A stretch of 64,000 nucleotides of DNA from Parashewanella tropica. GTDB lineage: Bacteria > Pseudomonadota > Gammaproteobacteria > Enterobacterales > Shewanellaceae. The DNA is taken from NCBI RefSeq assembly GCF_004358445.1, contig NZ_CP037951.1:2405501-2469500 (forward strand), read 5' to 3'. Shown piece by piece: positions 53,198 through 64,000 of the stretch. The position numbers and the translations under genes were made by a program. Position 1 is the first letter of the stretch. Each line of letters opens with the position of its first letter. The notes under the pieces are model-generated. The model was not told the origin of the DNA. It saw nothing but the letters and a program-made list of their open reading frames with translations, and made no database searches.

Positions 53198-53922
53198 AAT
53201 GACAATTGCGATTTCGCTTACGAGAAATACACACTCCTTGCTATTAGTGAACTGACGTTTGATTGCTAAAAAACGAGTAGATTGTCACAATGTAAATCAA
53301 TCGAACTAAATTGCAAGCAGATATTCATGCCAAATGAATTCCCAAAAATTATTTTACTGCAAACAAATATAGATAAATAGAGCACAAACCCTTTATTTTC
53401 ATAAGCTTATGAAAAATTTGCCGTCATTTTTTTGACAAAAACAAGCAAAAAAAATAATTTTTATCAATCGTCAAATTTATTACCCCAGCGTGGACAAAAA
53501 TTCGACACAATATCGAGCTAAATACTTTCATCATAAGTACCCATGCAAATGAAAACATATCTTTTGATCCCCCTTTTAAGCACTGCGCTGTGTTCCTATT
53601 GCTTGAAAGACTGCCGGTATTACCGACATACAAAACTGTCGTTATTACATTGCCTTCGCAATAGCGCCTTGCTCAGCACTTAGAATGAATACCAAAACTA
53701 TTCGATTACATTTGCATGAGTACTTAAACTCCACGGGTATAGGAAATAACAGCTGCTCAACATTCAAAAATAAAGAGAAACTAAACATCAACTCAGCCAT
53801 TTGTTTTTAAATGGATTCCACATATTTAAAACTAAACATTCACTTTTTTTTGAAATATAAAAACCCATCCCTCGGTCTTAACAAAAAGTCAACAAACAAC
53901 ATCTACTGGACGAGTGAACGTT
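53198..53922. other. 725-bp gene-free stretch
   Basis: A/T-rich divergent intergenic region between the DUF1800 gene and the outer-membrane protein gene. I see no RNA gene, repeat or clear promoter consensus. A 46-codon ORF at 53543-53683 begins with a hydrophobic run (MKTYLLIPLLSTALC) but has no convincing RBS or coding pattern and is not called. Long spacing suggests regulated divergent promoters. Confidence 0.5.
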
Positions 53923-54759
53923 ATGACCAACAAATTAAAAGTTAACAATACCTCTATTAAAGCACTCTTAATCGCAGCTCCTTTCGCGTTTGCAGCATCA
54001 AATGCTTCAGCTGGAGCTTGGGTTGCGGAAAAAGGCTCAGGCTATGCAAAACTTGGCTATGCCAGTTACGATGCCGATAAATATAAAGGCAACAACCCAA
54101 CCTTTGAGAGCTTCAAAAGTGACAACGTTTCTTTTTATGGAGAATACGGACTAGGAAATAATCTTGCTCTTTACGGTTCTCAGTTATTCCAATCGTATGA
54201 CCAGTCTGATTCTAAAGATGGAAAAAGCAGTGCAAGTGGCTTAAGTGATACTGAATTAGGTATCAAATACCAATGGCAAGCTAACCCTTTTGTTCTTTCA
54301 ACCTCATTTTTAGTCAAAGCACCTTTGTTTTATAAAGCTGAAGACGGCTTAGGTAATCACCAAGTCGATTATGAGGCTCGTGCGCTCATTGGTAAGAGTT
54401 TGAACGAATACGGTTACTTCGGTTTAGAAATGGGCTATCGCTTAAGAGCTGGCGCACCATCAGATGAATATCGTTACCTGGTTGAATACGGCTTTGACAT
54501 TAATAAAAACCTTTATTTCCGCACAAAATTAGACGGTACATTGAGTGCTAAAAACTCAGATACGCCTGACACAATCAATACCAACCTTTCAAATCCATTA
54601 GAGTTTGATGTTGGGAAGCTAGAACTTACTACTGGCTGGAAGTTTGATAACAAAGCCATGAAAGGCTACGGATTAGAATTCACTTTTACCCGTGAAATTT
54701 ACGGTGAAAATGTTTTACAAGGCAATCGTTTTGAGCTGGCTTTAACTAAAGTTTTCTAA
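53923..54759 (+). CDS. Outer-membrane beta-barrel protein
   Basis: 278 aa from the ATG at 53923 with GAG 8 nt upstream. Signal peptide 1-30 ends ASNASAG. The mature part alternates hydrophobic residues in short strands with aromatic girdles (YAKLGYASYDA; VSFYGEYGLGNNLALYGS; YGYFGLEMGYRLRAG) and ends in the Phe expected for BAM recognition (ALTKVF). Probable 12-strand barrel of the transporter/phenol-degradation-like group. Followed by a strong hairpin, and likely an outer-membrane channel for the downstream pathway. Confidence 0.85.
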   Translation: MTNKLKVNNTSIKALLIAAPFAFAASNASAGAWVAEKGSGYAKLGYASYDADKYKGNNPTFESFKSDNVSFYGEYGLGNNLALYGSQLFQSYDQSDSKDGKSSASGLSDTELGIKYQWQANPFVLSTSFLVKAPLFYKAEDGLGNHQVDYEARALIGKSLNEYGYFGLEMGYRLRAGAPSDEYRYLVEYGFDINKNLYFRTKLDGTLSAKNSDTPDTINTNLSNPLEFDVGKLELTTGWKFDNKAMKGYGLEFTFTREIYGENVLQGNRFELALTKVF

Positions 54760-54862: not shown

Positions 54863-56350
54863 ATGTCGTCGATTAGTTGGTTTTTTATTACCATTCATTT
54901 TGTTTTATTAGGCATTTTATGTCTTTTTGGTCTTCACCGACTCTCAATGGTATTTCGTTGGTTTAAATACCGCAATAACCAACCAACTGAGCCAGAAACC
55001 TTTTCCACTCTGCCAACTGTAACGGTTCAAATCCCTCTTTATAATGAACGACTTGTCGCTAAGCGAATCGTAGATTCAATCGTAAAACTTGAATATCCAC
55101 AAGATAAACTGCAAATTCAGATTGTTGATGATTCTACTGACGAAACCTGTGAGTTAGTGGCAGAACGAGTTAAATACTATCAACAGCAAGGCATTGATAT
55201 TCATCATGTGCAGCGAGTTCATCGACACGGATTTAAAGCGGGCGCACTAAAAGATGCGATGGAAACAGCCACTGGTGAATTTATTGCGATATTTGATGCT
55301 GACTTTATTCCACATACTGACACCCTGCTAAAAACCATTCACCACTTTACAGAGCCAGATATGGCCATGGTTCAGTTTAGATGGGAACACTTAAACCGCA
55401 GAAGCAGCTTACTCACAAAGCTGCAAGCTATTATGTTGGATGCGCACTTTGGTTTAGAACAACGTGTTCGCTGTGCCAGTAACATGTTGTTCAACTTTAA
55501 CGGCACCGCTGGTATTTGGCGTACTGAAGCGATTATTGATGCTGGTCATTGGAGCGCCGATACTCTTACCGAAGATCTTGACCTCAGCTATCGCGCCCAA
55601 CTCGCAGGCTGGAAGATGCGTTACCTCAATGACGTTACCTGCCCCGGTGAATTACCAGCGGATATGAACGCATTTAAGAGTCAGCAATTCCGCTGGGCAA
55701 AAGGCGGCGTGGAAGTCATGATGAAAATGCTTCCAACCGTATGGAAAGCCAAGCTTCCTATCACGAAAAAAATTGAGTCCACTTTCCATCTCTCAAACAA
55801 CCTTGCGTATTTTGTCATGCTGGTAGATACCTTAATTTTTCTGGTGCCCAGTTTATACCTCAGAGATCAGCATGACTTCGTCAACGTCTGGTGGCTAGAT
55901 ATTCCATTGCTAGCCATGTCATCGGGTGGTCATTTAGCGTATCTGTTTTTCGGTCAAGTAGTATTAGGACGCTCAAAACTTAGTGCATTTATCAAACTAC
56001 CAGGATTGATGGTTCTAGGTATCTTGCTTGCCATTAATAATTCAAAAGCGGGAATGGAAGGGTTATTTGGTAAACGCTCTGAATTTGTTCGTACCCCAAA
56101 AACTGGCGAACTAGGCGATGAGTCACCAACGCCACAAACAAAACCAAGTACAGAGAAAAAACAGTACCGAGCCATCCCACCAAAAGGTGCATTGTTTGAA
56201 TTGGCAATAGCCATCGTCTATTCCACAGTATTTTTATGGGCAGTAGGACAAGGTCATTGGTTTATGTTGCCATTCTTACTTTTATTGGCTGTAGGTTTTG
56301 TACTTTCCGCGTTTCATAGTTTTTACAGCCATATGCAGCTATCAAAGTGA
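54863..56350 (+). CDS. Membrane GT2 glycosyltransferase, cellulose-synthase-like
   Basis: 495 aa. TM helix about 5-30, then a GT2 domain with PLYNERLVAKRIVDSI, DDSTDET, DXD motif IFDADF (about 152), acceptor-site TEDLDL (about 237) and QQFRWAKG (Q-x-x-R-W, about 273), all hallmarks of CesA/HasA-type processive GT-A enzymes. Four to five membrane spans follow, split by a Pro/Thr/Lys-rich loop. It uses a nucleotide sugar at the inner face. It starts the pathway block with the next membrane GT overlapping nearly at its stop. Confidence 0.88.
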   Translation: MSSISWFFITIHFVLLGILCLFGLHRLSMVFRWFKYRNNQPTEPETFSTLPTVTVQIPLYNERLVAKRIVDSIVKLEYPQDKLQIQIVDDSTDETCELVAERVKYYQQQGIDIHHVQRVHRHGFKAGALKDAMETATGEFIAIFDADFIPHTDTLLKTIHHFTEPDMAMVQFRWEHLNRRSSLLTKLQAIMLDAHFGLEQRVRCASNMLFNFNGTAGIWRTEAIIDAGHWSADTLTEDLDLSYRAQLAGWKMRYLNDVTCPGELPADMNAFKSQQFRWAKGGVEVMMKMLPTVWKAKLPITKKIESTFHLSNNLAYFVMLVDTLIFLVPSLYLRDQHDFVNVWWLDIPLLAMSSGGHLAYLFFGQVVLGRSKLSAFIKLPGLMVLGILLAINNSKAGMEGLFGKRSEFVRTPKTGELGDESPTPQTKPSTEKKQYRAIPPKGALFELAIAIVYSTVFLWAVGQGHWFMLPFLLLLAVGFVLSAFHSFYSHMQLSK

Positions 56351-56364
56351 TAAGGCGCGAAGTT

Positions 56365-57804
56365 ATGATTCAGCTGATAAGTCATTTACAACAAAACTTA
56401 CCCGTCAAGGCTCGAACTTGGCTACATATAACAAGCTTGGCAGGAGTTGTTCTTTCTAGCTTAGCGAGCCATTGGTTATCAGAGTTCAAAACAACCCCAA
56501 ACTCTCCTCACTTAGCTGAAATGGGTATCTATATCATCATTCAGTTCAGTGTGATGGGGCTATTCATGTTATTAGCTTGGGCGACGGCTCCTGCTTCTAA
56601 CGCGTTGAAAGACTTTAAACTGATTTTGATCGCAGCCGTGATTGCAAGAGTCGTTTTACTTGATGTGGCTCCCTATACCTCGAATGATGTAGATAGATAC
56701 TTATTCGATGGTCGAATTGCCTACGAAGGGTTTGACCCTTATCGAGTCAGCCACGATGCTCCTGAATTACAGGAACTAAGAGCTCAGTGGCAACCGCCAC
56801 AGGAACACGCAAAGTATGTCACCTTATATCCGCCTGTAGCATTGAGTTTTTTTGCCTTGGCGGCTTCAGCAGATGTTGATAATGCTCAATTGGCTTGGAG
56901 TGCTATCTTACTTGTCAGTGGGTTACTAACCCTATACTTTTCTGCACAAGTATTGCAAAAGCTGGGCAAGCTAAAGCATCTCCCCTTAGTGGCTTTATCC
57001 CCATTATTGATTTTAGAAACTGGCGTAGGGCTTCATCTTGATGCACTTTCAGCATTGACTGTAATTGTGGCCGTTTATTTGTGGCTACACCAGCGATTTG
57101 TGTTGACCGGAATCATGATTGGAATAGGAATGTCGACAAAGATATTACCTATGATGTTGTTACTGCCCTTCCTGTTTTTTTTACTTGGTAAAAAAGAATT
57201 CAAAACCTTTGTAACGCTACTAGCTAGCACAATCGTAGCCATCGCCAGCATTTATTCACTCACCATTGCCCTTGGTTATCACCCAGTCGGTAGTATCAGT
57301 GTCTTTTTTGAAAAATGGCGTTTCGCCTCTCCGCTTTTTAATTCTCTCGATGCTTTTATATCTGGCTATCCACTGATTTTCACTCTAATGACGATTGCGA
57401 CGATTATTTGCTTATTAATCGGCTTTTTCAGCTTATCGTCAACGCCTTTAGCGTCAAAAGACAGCAAATTAGGCTCGTGTTTACAACTTGCTCTATCTGT
57501 ACCGCTATTTTTAGGCCCTGTGCTTTTTCCTTGGTATTTAATGCCATTAATCCCATTACTGGCATTAAGACCCAACCTTTATCTGATTGCTTGGACATTA
57601 CTCATGCCTTTGACTTATGAAGTCATAGGTAACTTCTTGTGTTGTCAGCAATGGCAACCTGCTCAATGGCCAATCATCATTCTCGGAATTCTATATCTAA
57701 TAACAACAATAAAACTCACAAAATGGCTTTATCAAAATAAATCACAACTAAAATTAAAAAGTCATTTGAGCAATGACAACCAAAGAATGAGTACCTGTCG
57801 ATAA
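56365..57804 (+). CDS. Polytopic membrane glycosyltransferase (GT-C type)
   Basis: 479 aa from the ATG at 56365, which follows AAGG; the GTG at 56347 overlaps the stop of the preceding gene and is less likely. About ten to eleven transmembrane helices. The luminal-type loop SNDVDRYLFDGRIAYEGFDPYR with its Asp pair is typical of GT-C/GT87-like mannosyltransferases that use polyprenyl-phosphate sugars. The last codons (STCR, stop at 57802-57804) lie inside the inverted repeat element 57790-57949, so the native C-terminus may have been changed by its insertion. Confidence 0.8.
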   Translation: MIQLISHLQQNLPVKARTWLHITSLAGVVLSSLASHWLSEFKTTPNSPHLAEMGIYIIIQFSVMGLFMLLAWATAPASNALKDFKLILIAAVIARVVLLDVAPYTSNDVDRYLFDGRIAYEGFDPYRVSHDAPELQELRAQWQPPQEHAKYVTLYPPVALSFFALAASADVDNAQLAWSAILLVSGLLTLYFSAQVLQKLGKLKHLPLVALSPLLILETGVGLHLDALSALTVIVAVYLWLHQRFVLTGIMIGIGMSTKILPMMLLLPFLFFLLGKKEFKTFVTLLASTIVAIASIYSLTIALGYHPVGSISVFFEKWRFASPLFNSLDAFISGYPLIFTLMTIATIICLLIGFFSLSSTPLASKDSKLGSCLQLALSVPLFLGPVLFPWYLMPLIPLLALRPNLYLIAWTLLMPLTYEVIGNFLCCQQWQPAQWPIIILGILYLITTIKLTKWLYQNKSQLKLKSHLSNDNQRMSTCR

Positions 57805-57962: not shown

Positions 57963-60317
57963 ATGATCAAAGCAATCAAAAACTATACTCATTGGCTGCA
58001 TGGACAGTGGCCAGACGGAACACCAGAAAAGCTCCCTCTCGTTGATACTAACGGTACCACTAACATCAAAGGCGTTTATGTGGTTGGTGATCTAACAGGC
58101 ATACCACTTCTCAAGTTTTCGGCTGATACAGGTGCTAAAGCCATCAATCAGATCATCAATGACGATGCTTTTAGCAAGCGTACTCAAAGCGATGAAATAA
58201 CTGATGTCATTATTGTTGGTGGCGGTGTCAGTGGTTATTCGGCGGCGATTGAAGCTAAAAAACATGGGTTAAGTTTTACATTGCTTGAAACGAATCAGCC
58301 ATTATCAACTATAGAGAACTTCCCAAAAAACAAGCCGATTTACACTTATCCAACGGATTTAGAACCAGAAGGTGAATTAGAGTTTTCGGACAAGATCACC
58401 CACAAAGAGAGCTTACTGTCAGAACTAAAAGCTCAGCTGACTAAGTTCGATATCAAGGCTGACATTGCTAAAGTTAGCCATGTAGAAAAGTGCTCGCAAT
58501 ACATTGATGTTGTCCTAGAAAATGGTGACAAATTAAAAGCACATAGAGTCATTATCGCCATTGGGCGTTCAGGTGGATATCGAAAGCTCAATATTCAAGG
58601 TGAGGAGTTAGGAAAAGTCAGTAATCGTTTAATCGATCCTGCCGTTTACGCAAATAAAAAATTATTGATTGTCGGCGGTGGTGACAGTGCCCTTGAAGCC
58701 GCTATCGCAACTGCCAATGAAAAAGCCGAAGTTACGCTTTCTTATCGCAAGGGAGAGTTTAATCGTGCTAAAAGCGAAAACGTTGAACAACTCTACGAAC
58801 TGGCAAATACAAACCAAATAAAATTAAGATTGAACACCAATCTTAGTGAAATTACTGAAAGTAACATCACTCTCACCAATCAAACGGGTGAAACTGAAAC
58901 GTTAGAAAATGACAACGTGCTTTTGGCTACGGGGCGTGAAGCACCTTTAGATTTTTTCAGACGTTCTAAAATCAAAATCCAAGGCGAAAGTACGTGGCAA
59001 GGCTGGATTGCTTTCGCACTATTTCTAGCGGCCATGTTCGCCCTTTATGATTGGAAAGGCTTTGGTTTTTTAAACTCATTTTGGAGTACTTTTTCCTATC
59101 CTGATCAAATGCCAACACTTATTGCTGGCTGGGGTGAATGGTGGCAAGCGCAAGTTAATGACCGCAGTACCTTAATTGGAACCATAGCGATTTCATTAAA
59201 AAGCCGTTCTTTTTATTACACTTTACTTTACACCATCATTATCGCCATTTTTGGTTGGCAACGAATTCAAAGGCGTAATACACCTTACGTCACTCGACAA
59301 ACCATTGTGTTATTTATGGTTCAGTTGCTGCCACTGTTTTTGCTTCCTGAGATTATTCTGCCGTACCTAGGTTATAACGGCGTTTATGATGCGGGATTTG
59401 GCAAAACCTTTGCCGATACCTTGTTCCCAAGTTACATCTCAGCTCAAGATCTAGCCGCTCAAAACTGGCCTGAGTGGGGGCACCCTCGTGCTTATTGGCA
59501 TGCTTACAGCTTGATTTTGGCTTGGCCGTTAAGTGTCTACACTGTGTTTACCGACACGCCACAAATCGCTTGGCTAGTCATTGCCGCATTACAAGTGTTA
59601 GTGATCATTCCTTTCATTGTGTACAAGTGGGGTAAAGGCGCTTATTGCGGTTGGATTTGTTCTTGTGGTGCTATGGCTGAAACCTTGGGTGATACCCAAC
59701 GCCATAAAATGCCGCACGGTTCTAAATGGAACAAGCTCAACATGCTTGGGCAGTTCATTTTATTGCTCGCAGTGACTTTATTGATTATCCGTATCCTAGG
59801 TTGGATATTTCCAGATACTTGGATGAACGGCATGTTCAATCTGATCTTTAAAGGTGAGAACTCCAGTGGTCAGTTAGTGAACGGTTTCAGCTACAAGTGG
59901 ATCATTGATGTTCTGTTTGCAGGTGTGCTCGGCTTTGGTTTGTATTTTAAATACTCTGGAAGAACATGGTGTCGCTTTGCCTGCCCGCTTGCTGCTCTCA
60001 TGCACATTTATGCTCGCTTTAGTAAATTTGCCATTGCCAGCGAAAAATCAAAATGCATCAGCTGTAATTTATGTACCAGCGTATGCCACCAAGGCATTGA
60101 TGTGATGGCCTTTGCCAGCAAAGGTAAACCAATGACTGATCCGCAATGTGTTCGTTGTTCAGCCTGCGTAAGTACTTGCCCGACCGGCACCTTATCTTTT
60201 GCACAAATCAATCGTAAAACATCAGAAGTGATAAAAACTGACTCACTTGCTGCGAGCCAAGTGCAAATGGCAGAGAAAGTGAAAGCCCACGGAGTAATAG
60301 AGGTTAATAATGTATAA
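57963..60317 (+). CDS. Flavoprotein oxidoreductase fused to NapH/RnfB-like 4Fe-4S membrane protein
   Basis: 784 aa. Residues 1-70 resemble the C-terminal end of thioredoxin-reductase-like proteins (GVYVVGDLTG). Then comes a FAD Rossmann site (VIIVGGGVSGYSAA, about 82), a second nucleotide site (LLIVGGGDSALEAA, about 232), a membrane part from about 350 with five or six spans, a cytoplasmic CGWICSCG (562-569) as in NapH/CcoG, and two ferredoxin clusters with CxxCxxCxxxC at about 698 and 729. It should pass electrons from NAD(P)H to a membrane or periplasmic acceptor. The next gene starts within its 3' end. Confidence 0.85.
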   Translation: MIKAIKNYTHWLHGQWPDGTPEKLPLVDTNGTTNIKGVYVVGDLTGIPLLKFSADTGAKAINQIINDDAFSKRTQSDEITDVIIVGGGVSGYSAAIEAKKHGLSFTLLETNQPLSTIENFPKNKPIYTYPTDLEPEGELEFSDKITHKESLLSELKAQLTKFDIKADIAKVSHVEKCSQYIDVVLENGDKLKAHRVIIAIGRSGGYRKLNIQGEELGKVSNRLIDPAVYANKKLLIVGGGDSALEAAIATANEKAEVTLSYRKGEFNRAKSENVEQLYELANTNQIKLRLNTNLSEITESNITLTNQTGETETLENDNVLLATGREAPLDFFRRSKIKIQGESTWQGWIAFALFLAAMFALYDWKGFGFLNSFWSTFSYPDQMPTLIAGWGEWWQAQVNDRSTLIGTIAISLKSRSFYYTLLYTIIIAIFGWQRIQRRNTPYVTRQTIVLFMVQLLPLFLLPEIILPYLGYNGVYDAGFGKTFADTLFPSYISAQDLAAQNWPEWGHPRAYWHAYSLILAWPLSVYTVFTDTPQIAWLVIAALQVLVIIPFIVYKWGKGAYCGWICSCGAMAETLGDTQRHKMPHGSKWNKLNMLGQFILLLAVTLLIIRILGWIFPDTWMNGMFNLIFKGENSSGQLVNGFSYKWIIDVLFAGVLGFGLYFKYSGRTWCRFACPLAALMHIYARFSKFAIASEKSKCISCNLCTSVCHQGIDVMAFASKGKPMTDPQCVRCSACVSTCPTGTLSFAQINRKTSEVIKTDSLAASQVQMAEKVKAHGVIEVNNV

Positions 60318-61047
60318 GGGACATAGAGTTGCGGTAGTGATCCCAGCATTAAATGAAGAAAACGCGATTGGTGTAGTAACTACTGCACTCAACGCACTCA
60401 GATTTGAAAACCAACAAGTGATTGATGCCATTGTCGTCTGTGACAATGGTTCAACCGATAATACAGCTTCAGTGGCACGAGCTGCTGGAGCAATCACGGT
60501 AAGGCAAGACATTCCGGGCTACGGTATTGCCTGTTTGACCGCCATAGATAACTTACCTCAGTGTGATATCGTGCTTTTTGTTGATGGAGATGACTCTTGT
60601 TTTGCCGAACAAGCTATTCCTATGCTTGAAGGAATCGTCAATGGTGATGATTTAGCCATTGGTTCTCGAAATTTAGGAAAGATCGAAAAAGGCGCTCTAA
60701 CTCAAACTCAAATGTTTGGAAATTGGCTTTCAAGCCATCTCATCACGTTTTTTTGGGGACAAAAAATCACAGATTTAGGGCCTTTTAGAGCCATTCGTTA
60801 TTCGGCGTTGCAAACCATCAATATGCAAGACAAAACCTTCGGTTGGACAGTAGAAATGCAAGTCAAAGCCATTATTCACGGTATGCAAGTAAGCGAGTAT
60901 GCAGTGGATTCCAAAGTGCGTATTGGTGAGTCCAAAATCAGCGGAACACTCAAAGGTTCAGTCAAAGCTGGAATTGGTATTTTATCCATGATAGGCAAGC
61001 TGTACTTCACTCAAGGTCAACTAAGACGAGCTGCCAGCCGTATATGA
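60310..61047 (+). CDS. GT2 glycosyltransferase, DPM1/UgtP-like
   Basis: 245 aa GT-A enzyme. VVIPALNEENAIGVV, CDNGSTDNT, VDGDDS (the DXD motif, about 92), GSRNLG, and DLGPFRAIRYSAL are the GT2 blocks of polyprenyl-phosphate sugar synthases and TIGR04283-like enzymes of arsenosugar clusters. A C-terminal amphipathic helix may attach it to the membrane. It overlaps both neighbours (8 bp and 4 bp). It could make the lipid-linked sugar used by the GT-C enzyme encoded at 56365. Confidence 0.87.
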   Translation: MYKGHRVAVVIPALNEENAIGVVTTALNALRFENQQVIDAIVVCDNGSTDNTASVARAAGAITVRQDIPGYGIACLTAIDNLPQCDIVLFVDGDDSCFAEQAIPMLEGIVNGDDLAIGSRNLGKIEKGALTQTQMFGNWLSSHLITFFWGQKITDLGPFRAIRYSALQTINMQDKTFGWTVEMQVKAIIHGMQVSEYAVDSKVRIGESKISGTLKGSVKAGIGILSMIGKLYFTQGQLRRAASRI

Positions 61048-61877
61048 AAAAAGTGGTAATAGTTGTTGGCTTGGTTTTATCAATATTGCTGTATAAAGGG
61101 GTTTCACTTTATGCAGCCATCACTCCTCAAGCCAATACATTTTGGGAGTCCAGTCAACCTGATAACACTCTAAAGGTTGATCATCAGCTCTGGCAAACTT
61201 TGCTAGATAAATATTTAGTAGAAGAACAAAACTCTAGGTCTTTCGCTTATTCGTCCGTTTCAGCCGACGATAAAAAAGCACTAAAAGCTTACCTAAAACA
61301 GTTGAGTTCAATTGACCCAAGATCGTTAAATCGAAATGAGCAACTGGCATATTGGGTTAACTTATATAATGCGCTGACAATAGATCTCACCCTTAATCAC
61401 TACCCAATAAAATCAATTAAAGACATTGGTGATGGCATAACGGGGCCTTGGAATATCGAAGTTATTCAGATATCTGGTCAAGCAGTTACCCTCAACCAAA
61501 TTGAGCACAAAATTTTACGTCCAATATGGAAAGATCCACGAATCCATTATGTGATTAATTGTGCTAGTCGTGGATGCCCTGATCTTCCAACTAAAGCCTT
61601 AACCAGCCAAAATATTGAAGCGCAACTCAATCAGGCAGCGGTTAGATTTATCAATCAAACCAAAGGGGTAGATATTCAAAATGATCAATTAACCCTTTCG
61701 AGTATCTACAATTGGTTTTCTGAAGATTTTGGCAAAGATCGACATGCGTTAATTTCACACATCAACACATTTGCTAAGCCAAGTTTAAAAGCCGAACTCG
61801 CCAAAGACAAACCTTTGAACATCAAATTTCAATATGATTGGAAATTAAATTCGCCAACGGCAGGTCATTTAGATTAA
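61044..61877 (+). CDS. DUF547 domain protein, exported
   Basis: 277 aa. An N-terminal signal anchor spans about 5-26. The DUF547 domain covers about 90-220 with LAYWVNLYNALTIDL, HKILRPIWKDPRIHYVINCASRGCPDL and LSSIYNWFSEDFG. In arsenosugar gene clusters DUF547 proteins are common companions, but their function is unknown. Its conserved C-x-x-x-x-C-P stretch (NCASRGCP) may be catalytic; that is inference. Last gene before the second inverted-repeat element. Confidence 0.9.
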   Translation: MKKVVIVVGLVLSILLYKGVSLYAAITPQANTFWESSQPDNTLKVDHQLWQTLLDKYLVEEQNSRSFAYSSVSADDKKALKAYLKQLSSIDPRSLNRNEQLAYWVNLYNALTIDLTLNHYPIKSIKDIGDGITGPWNIEVIQISGQAVTLNQIEHKILRPIWKDPRIHYVINCASRGCPDLPTKALTSQNIEAQLNQAAVRFINQTKGVDIQNDQLTLSSIYNWFSEDFGKDRHALISHINTFAKPSLKAELAKDKPLNIKFQYDWKLNSPTAGHLD

Positions 61878-61889
61878 GTACACAAAAGT

Positions 61890-62121
61890 TTAACCTAAAA
61901 ACATCAGTTGGCTACGTTTTCAAGCGTAGAAAAAATGACTGATAGCAAGGCGTAGCTTGCAGCAAGTAGCCATTCTACTTGCAAAAGTTACAACACAGCT
62001 AGCGGTCATTTTGGCAAGCTTGCGGGCGTAGAGCCTTCACTCAATGACTGAAAGATGAGATGAGTTAAACCATATTGTATTTAATCATTTTTAAAGCGTT
62101 CAACTGATGTTTTTAGGTTAA
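61890..62121. repeat. MITE-like inverted-repeat element, copy 2, perfect terminal repeats
   Basis: 232 bp bounded by an exact 21-bp inverted repeat: TTAACCTAAAAACATCAGTT plus G at 61890-61910, and its complement at 62101-62121. Both ends carry TTAA. The core has CAAGGCG, a hairpin CAAGTAG-CCATT-CTACTTG, and CAACACAG..AGCGGT, the same layout as copy 1. No ORF. The right end lies 6 bp before the start codon of the ArsM fusion and provides its only AGG-type RBS. Confidence 0.8.
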
Positions 62122-62127
62122 CAATTA

Positions 62128-63963
62128 ATGATAAAACCACTACCAACACTTGTTGTCTTCTGTAAAAGACCAAAGCTACACCAAGGCAAACAACGCCTAA
62201 CAGAAGGTACAAGCCCCGAAAATGCGTTAGAGATTGCCAAAGCTTTACTGAGTTGCGCCATAGAAGACGCAAAAACTTGGAAAGGTAATGTTGTGCTAGC
62301 GTGTGCTCATCAACAAGATGAGCGCTGGATGCAAGCCCAATTACCTGAAGCAGAGGTGATGTCGCAATTGCCACTAGGAGAAGAAGGTAATCTTGGTAAG
62401 CGCCTTAACTATATTGATTCAACATTAAGAAGTCAGGGACATAAGCAAATCCTTTACATAGGTACTGATGCCCCAATCTTGAGTGAAAGTCATTATTCAT
62501 CAACACTGTCGGCTCTCAAAGACCATGATATCGTACTGAACCATGCTGATGATGGTGGTGTCGTCATTATGGCAAATAATCACCCTTGGCCTTATATCAG
62601 CCAGCTTTCATGGAGTACAAACACACTTGGCAAAGAGCTGGAAAATGCGTGCCAAACTCATCAATTATCTGTGACTTCAGCCCTTAGTGGTTACGATATT
62701 GATTATGTCTCCGATATCAAAAAGCTCTACCAAGATCTCCAAACTGATTTACGTCCAGCGCGACAATACCTGCTTTCTTTAATTACTGATTTATTTTCTT
62801 TGGATGTTCTCAAAATGACACAGAATTCCCAATGCTGTAGTACCAGCACAGAAACCAATGTTTCAGATAACAACACCCATAATGTTGTTAAAGATTATTA
62901 TGGAAAAGTACTTGAAAGCTCGGAGGATCTTCAAACCAACGCTTGCTGCACCGATGATGACTTATCATCTCAAATGAAAACCGTACTATCCAACATCCAT
63001 GACGAGGTACTTACCCGTTACTATGGCTGTGGATTGGTGACTCCTGAATCTCTCGAAGGTTGCCATATTCTTGATCTAGGCTGTGGTGCTGGACGTGATT
63101 GCTATGCCCTAGCCCAATTAGTTGGCGAAACTGGTTCTGTCATTGGTGTTGATATGACTGATGAGCAGCTTGCTGTTGCCAACAAACATATTGAGTATCA
63201 CCAGCATAAATTTGGCTACGCCGAGCCAAACACACGTTTTTTAAAAGGCTACATTGAAAGACTCAACGAGCTTAACATTCCTGACAACAGCATTGATATT
63301 GTCATATCAAACTGCGTCATTAATTTAAGCCCAGATAAACATGCGGTACTCAAAGAAGTCTTTCGCATTCTAAAGCCTGGTGGTGAGATCTATTTTTCAG
63401 ATGTATATGCCGATAGACGCGTTCCTCAACAATTAGTTGACGATCCACTACTATATGGAGAATGTCTAAGTGGTGCGCTGTATTGGAATGACTTTGAAAA
63501 TATCGCCAAACAAGTAGGTTTTGCCGAACCAAGATTAGTGACAAGTCGTGCCATAACGATTGATAACCCTGAGCTTGCTGCAAGGCTGAAAGATATCCAA
63601 TTTACATCTGCAACTTACCGTTTATTTAAAGCAGAACACCTTGAGCCTCAACCACAAAACTATGGTCAGCAAGTTACCTATTTAGGCACTATTGCTGAGC
63701 ATGAAACTGAATGGCAAATAGATGACACCACTTGTTTTACACGTGGCGTAACTACTCACGTTAGCGGAAATATATGGCACACCCTAAAGCAGTCTCGCTT
63801 TAGTCAACACTTCGTGTTTACCGATGAAGGTGAAGGTCACCTAGGTTTCTATCAATCACAAGCACTGAGAACAAGCGCTGATTTTGACTTTCAAAAAAGC
63901 TTAAGTAACACAAGTGCGAGCTGTTGTGCACCGACACAAACTACCAAAAAGAGTTGTTGCTAA
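62128..63963 (+). CDS. arsM: Fusion: arsenosugar-type glycosyltransferase (TIGR04282-like) plus ArsM arsenite methyltransferase
   Basis: 611 aa. Residues 1-215 match the short TIGR04282 glycosyltransferase of arsenosugar clusters (VVFCKRPKLHQGKQRL, YIGTDAPILSE, NHADDGGVVIM). Residues 240-611 are an ArsM of the Cyanidioschyzon type: Rossmann LDLGCGAGRDCYALAQL, SNCVINLSPDKHAV, SDVYADRRVP, LYGECLSGALY, and a C-terminal domain ending SCC. The four arsenic-binding cysteines align at about C273/274, C325, C396 and C446. An internal ATG at 62815 could start a separate ArsM but lacks a clear RBS, so I read one fused protein. SAM-dependent methylation of As(III) and sugar transfer would then be physically linked. 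Confidence 0.88.
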   Translation: MIKPLPTLVVFCKRPKLHQGKQRLTEGTSPENALEIAKALLSCAIEDAKTWKGNVVLACAHQQDERWMQAQLPEAEVMSQLPLGEEGNLGKRLNYIDSTLRSQGHKQILYIGTDAPILSESHYSSTLSALKDHDIVLNHADDGGVVIMANNHPWPYISQLSWSTNTLGKELENACQTHQLSVTSALSGYDIDYVSDIKKLYQDLQTDLRPARQYLLSLITDLFSLDVLKMTQNSQCCSTSTETNVSDNNTHNVVKDYYGKVLESSEDLQTNACCTDDDLSSQMKTVLSNIHDEVLTRYYGCGLVTPESLEGCHILDLGCGAGRDCYALAQLVGETGSVIGVDMTDEQLAVANKHIEYHQHKFGYAEPNTRFLKGYIERLNELNIPDNSIDIVISNCVINLSPDKHAVLKEVFRILKPGGEIYFSDVYADRRVPQQLVDDPLLYGECLSGALYWNDFENIAKQVGFAEPRLVTSRAITIDNPELAARLKDIQFTSATYRLFKAEHLEPQPQNYGQQVTYLGTIAEHETEWQIDDTTCFTRGVTTHVSGNIWHTLKQSRFSQHFVFTDEGEGHLGFYQSQALRTSADFDFQKSLSNTSASCCAPTQTTKKSCC

Positions 63964-64000
63964 TGAGTACGGCAGAGCAAGTGAATCATTGGACACACAC
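63963..64000 (+). CDS. Start of next gene (cut by window edge)
   Basis: The ATG at 63963-63965 overlaps the TAA of the ArsM fusion (TAATG), so it is translationally coupled and belongs to the same operon. Only 12 residues are visible (MSTAEQVNHWTH), too few to identify. A radical SAM ArsS would be the expected partner in an arsenosugar cluster, but nothing visible proves that. Confidence 0.6.
   Translation, partial: MSTAEQVNHWTH

Follow-up and report, generated by a model that had tools for sequence, protein, structure and literature searches.

Arsenosugar formation in Synechocystis relies on the methyltransferase ArsM together with ArsS. The enzymes that convert an adenosylated arsenical to an arsenosugar have, to our knowledge, not been established. 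The Synechocystis ArsM–ArsS pathway is mentioned in PMC8552651, and adenosylation of arsenic by a radical SAM enzyme is described for oxo-arsenosugar biosynthesis in PMC12159101. ArsM fusions of other kinds are already known: NCBIfam holds models for ArsM–AhpD and ArsM–DUF2284 fusions, and PMC10190100 reports the fusion ArsRM to be bifunctional. No paper on a TIGR04282–ArsM fusion was found in the open-licence literature. A fusion of this type is encoded in the window analysed here (the whole stretch of 64,000 nucleotides of Parashewanella tropica DNA), and the locus as a whole is likely to be best explained as a real, lineage-specific fusion residing in a conserved gene cassette with an arsenosugar-type route.

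The fused gene (62128..63963, forward strand) is a frame of 611 codons that begins with the ATG at 62128, runs to the stop at 63963 and contains no internal stops. Its domain matches are TIGR04282/CofC-like and ArsM, and an equal ORF is found in a second genome of the genus, G004. A sequence-only reading of this DNA had claimed a single polypeptide of this composition, which is borne out by the 611-aa frame and the domain alignments. In a profile search, the TIGR04282 (glyco_like_cofC) match covered residues 8–197 (62149..62718, forward strand) with all 189 model positions aligned, at 114.7 bits for the whole protein and 117.4 bits for the N-terminal part. The curated cut-off of 134 bits was missed by both fused proteins (window, 114.7; G004, 102.6), and TIGR04282 is a hypothetical-equivalog model; with the cut-off unreached, 'glycosyltransferase' is best read as a putative name for this domain. 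The Pfam family DUF2064 (PF09837) was passed at residues 49–164, with 56 bits against a gathering score of 25.8. Kinship to CofC appears to be distant only: the N-terminal domain missed the model of this 2-phospho-L-lactate guanylyltransferase (TIGR03552) with 25.7 and 29.1 bits against a curated 105, and 20 of 23 relatives matched it weakly (E 0.001 or better). Residues K13, K21, R23, D114, P116, D142, G143 and G144 are conserved in at least 90% of the 23 aligned relatives. The closest solved structure is the putative nucleotide-diphospho-sugar transferase 3cgx (E 1.3e-19); kinship to CMP-KDO synthetases was also considered and rejected as not significant (E 0.03 to 0.18).

The ArsM methyltransferase region, residues 246–577 (62863..63858, forward strand), aligns with CmArsM (PDB 4fr0) at E 4e-92. 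In this alignment C273 (62944..62946), C301 (63028..63030), C396 (63313..63315) and C446 (63463..63465), all on the forward strand, correspond to CmArsM C44, C72, C174 and C224, respectively. The sequence-only reading was thus right that all four ArsM-type cysteines are kept and had correctly listed C273, C396 and C446; its C325, however, aligns with a CmArsM valine, while C301, the counterpart of C72, was absent from its list. The domain search that it had called for was likewise favourable in part, in that the ArsM half aligned with CmArsM and TIGR04282 aligned at full length but below its cut-off. All NCBIfam arsenite methyltransferase models remained under their curated scores (PRK11873, 188.2 of 263; NF038099 AsSugarArsM, 94.7 of 400; NF040538, 161.4 of 500), and extra cysteine pairs flank the ArsM part (C236/C237, C599/C600 and C610/C611). 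A structure model of the fused protein, built on a shallow 14-row alignment whose short rows have some misaligned residues in their tails, reached a mean pLDDT of 73 and a pTM of 0.51. Its top structural matches were ArsM/AS3MT structures (TM-score by target 0.79–0.85), and 3cgx was the best structural match for the N-terminal domain (TM-score 0.80). Values of pLDDT below 50 were obtained at residues 225–290, which include the joint, and at residues 573–611, and judging from the model the linker between the domains is probably disordered or flexible. One further alignment, whose short rows seemed misaligned, was left out of the analysis. The fold and the four cysteines suggest that the ArsM domain methylates As(III).

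A search of 117 genomes (its own included) with the fused protein revealed the second complete fused frame in G004 (L009:1495-3330), which likewise encodes 611 aa and is 78% identical. The G004 assembly consists of about 230 contigs, and that of the window genome of a single contig. The fused state is thus present in two of the five genomes of the genus, while the two genes are separate in the other three (G001, G002 and G003). In the same order, both genes are present but separate in five more genomes (G108, G074, G084, G091 and G106); the same search gave a strong match to ArsM only in G085 and to the N-terminal type only in G104 and G080. Alignment with the unfused Parashewanella genes located a net 4-nt deletion in the junction (62776..62868, forward strand). 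In a seven-sequence alignment, the 4-nt gap common to the window and G004 lies 19 nt upstream of the former arsM start codon (at about 62795/62796), while a three-sequence alignment puts it about 39 nt before this codon, i.e. about 20 nt further upstream. The exact deletion site is therefore uncertain, though the protein sequence of the upstream frame can still be aligned as far as the later (19-nt) position. At the level of nucleotide alignment, these comparisons show that the two frames were merged by a deletion. The former arsM start corresponds in the junction alignment to an internal ATG, Met230 (codon 230; 62815..62817, forward strand), which is retained in both fused species and is preceded by AGGAG in G001 and G002 at the old arsM ATG, by AGGA in G004 and by GGA in the window.

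Among 14 unfused loci, the likely arsM ATG lies from 16 nt before to 10 nt after the point where the upstream gene ends, these starts being predictions for which the ATG nearest the upstream gene's end was chosen (alternatives exist in 5 of the 14 loci, besides downstream GTG codons). At nine of the 14, including all three unfused members of the genus, the two genes lie in different frames with an 8-nt overlap. At one locus (L092), the TIGR04282-like gene and arsM share one frame and are separated by just a stop codon and 3 nt. Concatenation of four cassette proteins from eight genomes gave a tree in which the window and G004 grouped with 100% bootstrap and the node joining G003 to the inner branch of the outgroups received just 55% at the next split. 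Parsimony makes the unfused state the older one. The pattern is explained by one net 4-nt deletion, just upstream of arsM, in the ancestor of the two species: it put the upstream gene into the arsM frame with loss of its stop codon, and an overlapping, probably translationally coupled pair became one 611-aa two-domain protein. On this comparative evidence, the fusion is young, rare and lineage-specific rather than an ancient channelling enzyme, and it would mainly fix a 1:1 ratio of the two activities. The strict co-production that the sequence-only reading had offered as its weaker proposal is therefore plausible, though it adds little, since an 8-nt overlap already links the unfused genes at nine of the 14 loci measured.

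Rarity was also apparent from wider surveys. A class-level TIGR04282 search matched 200 of 369 genomes; among its matches listed to about E 1e-50, beyond which divergent members such as the window's own lie, the 15 rows with frames of at least 385 aa had no ArsM match in the same frame (phmmer). At the phylum level, the fused protein used as a query matched 97 of 398 genomes at 1e-20, and nine listed rows with frames of at least 449 aa, the window's own aside, were followed up. Three candidates were rejected. The match in G600 spans both halves, but has five stops inside and represents two separate ORFs, and in G543 and G818 ArsM is encoded by an ORF of 370 and 357 aa, respectively. For the six other rows from the phylum and for G328, the matches listed at E 1e-5 (the best 25 of 27 families for L056 and the best 25 of 26 for L057) did not include TIGR04282, a search in which G004, used as a positive control, was matched. 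The occurrence survey suggested by the sequence-only reading thus yielded the fused state in G004 and otherwise none among the long frames examined. The G600 locus (L055:2595-5284), from another class, contains a DUF547 gene, a TIGR04282-type gene and arsM as adjoining but separate genes, and no relative of the radical SAM protein described below was matched in its 8.5 kb. This trio may represent an older module, to judge from its gene order.

Six genes precede the fused gene in a syntenic block, the window members of which all lie on the forward strand. The block opens with a conserved protein without a Pfam or NCBIfam match (53914..54759), placed by synteny, followed by a GT2 of the PgaC/cellulose-synthase type (54863..56350) and a GT87-family glycosyltransferase (56347..57804), both assigned by family match and synteny. 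Next are a single 784-aa ORF (57963..60317), the family matches of which combine a flavin pyridine-nucleotide reductase (YpdA/TrxR-like) with a NapH-like polyferredoxin, a GT2-family glycosyltransferase (60310..61047) with AglJ and a dolichyl-phosphate hexose transferase as its best NCBIfam matches, both below cut-off, and a DUF547 protein (61044..61877; family match and synteny). The radical SAM gene starts directly at the end of the fused gene (63963..64000, ending outside the window at L001:3381), its ATG overlapping the TAA of the fused gene by one base (TAATG), and is followed outside the window by an ArsC-type LMW phosphatase (L001:3420-3839) and an MTA phosphorylase (MTAP; L001:3861-4709). 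The latter passes TIGR01694 (283 bits against a curated 274.85), and the ArsC falls short of the cut-off that NCBIfam sets for arsenate reductase (149.9 of 174.3). Just past the cassette (L001:4838-9015), small predicted secreted proteins are encoded on both strands, some of them paralogue-like by eye.

The whole block is present in the window genome, G001, G003 and G004, and in G002 it ends at a contig end. A profile search at E 1e-60 found the radical SAM gene in 16 of 394 genomes of the order. It has arsM beside it in 15 of the 16, the remaining locus (G890/L091) beginning at a contig end; MTAP accompanies it in 13 of the loci and a clear ArsC in 11. The TIGR04282-like gene is directly before arsM or fused to it in 12 of the 16, lies 0.8 kb off in G091 and 2.2 kb off in G106, and was not seen in G085 and G890, both of which have loci beginning near contig ends. 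No MTAP was found in the stretches examined of G085, G091 and G106. By its gene content, the cassette is conserved but not uniform. An MTA/SAH nucleosidase above cut-off is encoded elsewhere in all six genomes tested, and the cassette MTAP therefore looks dedicated; routine salvage of MTA is unlikely to require it. Among the loci with GT2 and GT87 genes, the flavoprotein–polyferredoxin ORF occurs in seven (window, L028, L030, L031, L033, L089 and L093) and is missing in four (L032, L086, L087 and L088); its product might act as an electron donor for the radical SAM enzyme. Between the DUF547 gene and the fused gene, the window carries a MITE-like element of about 232 bp (61890–62121) with perfect 21-bp terminal inverted repeats, which ends 6 bp before the fused ATG and has 14 full or partial matches in its own genome, itself included. 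As the corresponding gap in G004 is only 22 nt, the element is probably a later insertion, one that by its position probably provides the fused gene with its present leader.

The cassette radical SAM protein, of about 305 aa, has nine invariant cysteines in 12 members, namely a CX3CX2C motif and six C-terminal ones. It was rejected as an ArsS, since it scored 44.5 of 300 bits with TIGR04167, and no match to this family above the cut-off was found anywhere in the genome. Its best NCBIfam match was the Rv1681 family (119 of 380, far below cut-off), and no cut-off was reached among the NCBIfam families listed, for which reason any assignment of its chemistry is a guess. A model of the protein (mean pLDDT 80) matched SPASM/twitch-type and other structures in Foldseek, e.g. 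SkfB, BlsE, MoaA and viperin; such predicted similarity to proteins of several functions does not tell its chemistry. ArsL was rejected as well, as the length of about 305 aa and the nine cysteines disagree with BgArsL, a comparison based on the published description of that protein. Near arsM in two other genomes, radical SAM proteins of greater length (L056:2443-3693, 416 aa; L057:8318-9514, 398 aa) show weak similarity to the cassette protein (133 bits).

Based on this gene order, an ArsS-independent, arsenosugar-type pathway is proposed, the individual steps of which probably follow from the order and families of the genes. ArsC would reduce arsenate, the ArsM domain would yield methylated As(III), and the radical SAM enzyme would add a 5'-deoxyadenosyl group onto the methylated arsenic. 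MTAP would then remove adenine by phosphorolysis, giving 5-deoxy-5-arsinoyl-ribose-1-phosphate, and the N-terminal domain of the fused protein would activate or transfer this arseno-ribose-1-phosphate, leaving the GT2 and GT87 enzymes to finish a glycolipid or glycoside. For activation speak the conserved K13, K21 and R23 of the domain and its distant kinship to CofC. Enzymes of the GT2 and GT87 families could use a polyprenyl carrier. A more specific version can be offered tentatively, namely an undescribed ArsS-independent pathway in which a new radical SAM family adenosylates the arsenical, a dedicated MTAP produces dimethylarsinoyl-ribose-1-phosphate, the TIGR04282 domain acts as a nucleotidyltransferase instead of a glycosyltransferase to form NDP-arsenoribose, and GT2/GT87 enzymes load the sugar onto a polyprenyl carrier, from which it reaches an acceptor in the periplasm or a lipid acceptor. 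If true, the NDP-arsenoribose version would supply the steps after formation of the adenosyl–arsenic bond.

Several other explanations of the fused frame were weighed. A sequencing or assembly frameshift, with two truly separate genes in the window strain, would agree with the two frames of the three unfused genus genomes and with the short T runs near the joint. The separately assembled G004, however, shows the identical 4-nt loss and a 611-aa frame at 78% identity; two identical independent errors would be needed, which makes this explanation very unlikely, to the point of being negligible, and the sequencing error near 62800 about which the sequence-only reading had cautioned is not the source of the fusion. 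Selection on the fused frame was assessed from the N-terminal half, for which the comparison of the window with G004 gave a dN of 0.231 and a dS of 2.38 (ratio about 0.10), in an analysis in which the unfused N-terminal rows were trimmed, two of them lacking their first residues. As far as codon comparison can tell, purifying selection has evidently acted on this half since the two fused species diverged, and the near-saturated synonymous divergence means that the frame has been open for a long time. In the arsM half, synonymous sites were too saturated, dS being estimable among genus members for G001–G002 alone. A frame kept open across such divergence would also suit true channelling, in which the domains form a defined complex and hand a methylated arsenical to a sugar, as the sequence-only reading had favoured. 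That proposal fits poorly with a derived fusion limited to two sister species, two of the five genus members, whose near relatives have this cassette with the two proteins unjoined, and with a low-confidence, probably flexible linker. The likeliest route moreover puts the radical SAM enzyme and the phosphorylase between the fused activities; since these are not consecutive, direct channelling is unlikely, and the defined complex as a whole is given very little credence. A further possibility is that the readthrough fusion coexists with free ArsM started at Met230, so that 611-aa and 382-aa proteins are both made and the fusion is nearly neutral. The conservation of the ATG in both fused species, the AGGA that G004 retains upstream of it and the agreement of its aligned position with the likely arsM start of the unfused genus members speak for such an internal start, whereas the reduction to GGA in the window, where G001 and G002 have AGGAG, and the loss of the stop codon that would re-position ribosomes speak against it. 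As the old ATG survives, the cell may continue to produce some free ArsM, though coexistence of the two proteins on a scale that leaves the fusion nearly neutral is rather doubtful.

For the pathway, the main competing explanation is an arsinothricin-like product, with the phosphorylase serving to clear MTA. The adjacency of arsM and the radical SAM gene resembles the arsQML cluster of Burkholderia gladioli as described in PMC8552651, and the SAM cleavage involved would presumably leave MTA, an MTAP substrate. The same paper, however, gives BgArsL as a protein of 428 aa with three conserved cysteines, against about 305 aa and nine invariant ones here, several sugar-transferase-type genes belong to the cassette, and an MTA/SAH nucleosidase is already encoded elsewhere. 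An arsinothricin-like product thus appears improbable, and the arsenosugar-type route is preferred.

Compared with known proteins, the fused enzyme resembles CmArsM and human AS3MT (PDB 4fr0 family and 8xt7) in the whole ArsM region, the four catalytic cysteines and the fold, and differs in its added N-terminal TIGR04282-like domain and extra flanking cysteine pairs. With the TIGR04282 'arsenosugar biosynthesis glycosyltransferase'/DUF2064 proteins (3cgx), it shares a full-length alignment and the motifs K21-x-R23, D114-x-P116 and D142-G143-G144, though it stays under the cut-off and is joined to ArsM. ArsRM from Brevundimonas sp. M20 is likewise an arsenite methyltransferase fused to an arsenic-pathway protein, its partner being, according to PMC10190100, an ArsR regulator instead of the sugar-enzyme-like domain found here. 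As regards the cassette, the arsQML arsinothricin cluster similarly combines arsM with a radical SAM gene, but the radical SAM protein of the present cassette has another length and another number of cysteines than that described in PMC8552651, and sugar-transferase-type genes are present; no transporter was seen among the cassette genes scanned by family. The Synechocystis pathway also pairs ArsM with a radical SAM enzyme, whereas the radical SAM protein of the cassette is not an ArsS by score and is accompanied by MTAP, ArsC, GT2 and GT87. The fusion clearly exemplifies how a small deletion can merge overlapping genes. Of more interest than the fusion is the cassette: it ties ArsM to an unclassified radical SAM protein, a nucleoside phosphorylase and sugar-transferase-type proteins, and thereby offers testable candidates for each step.
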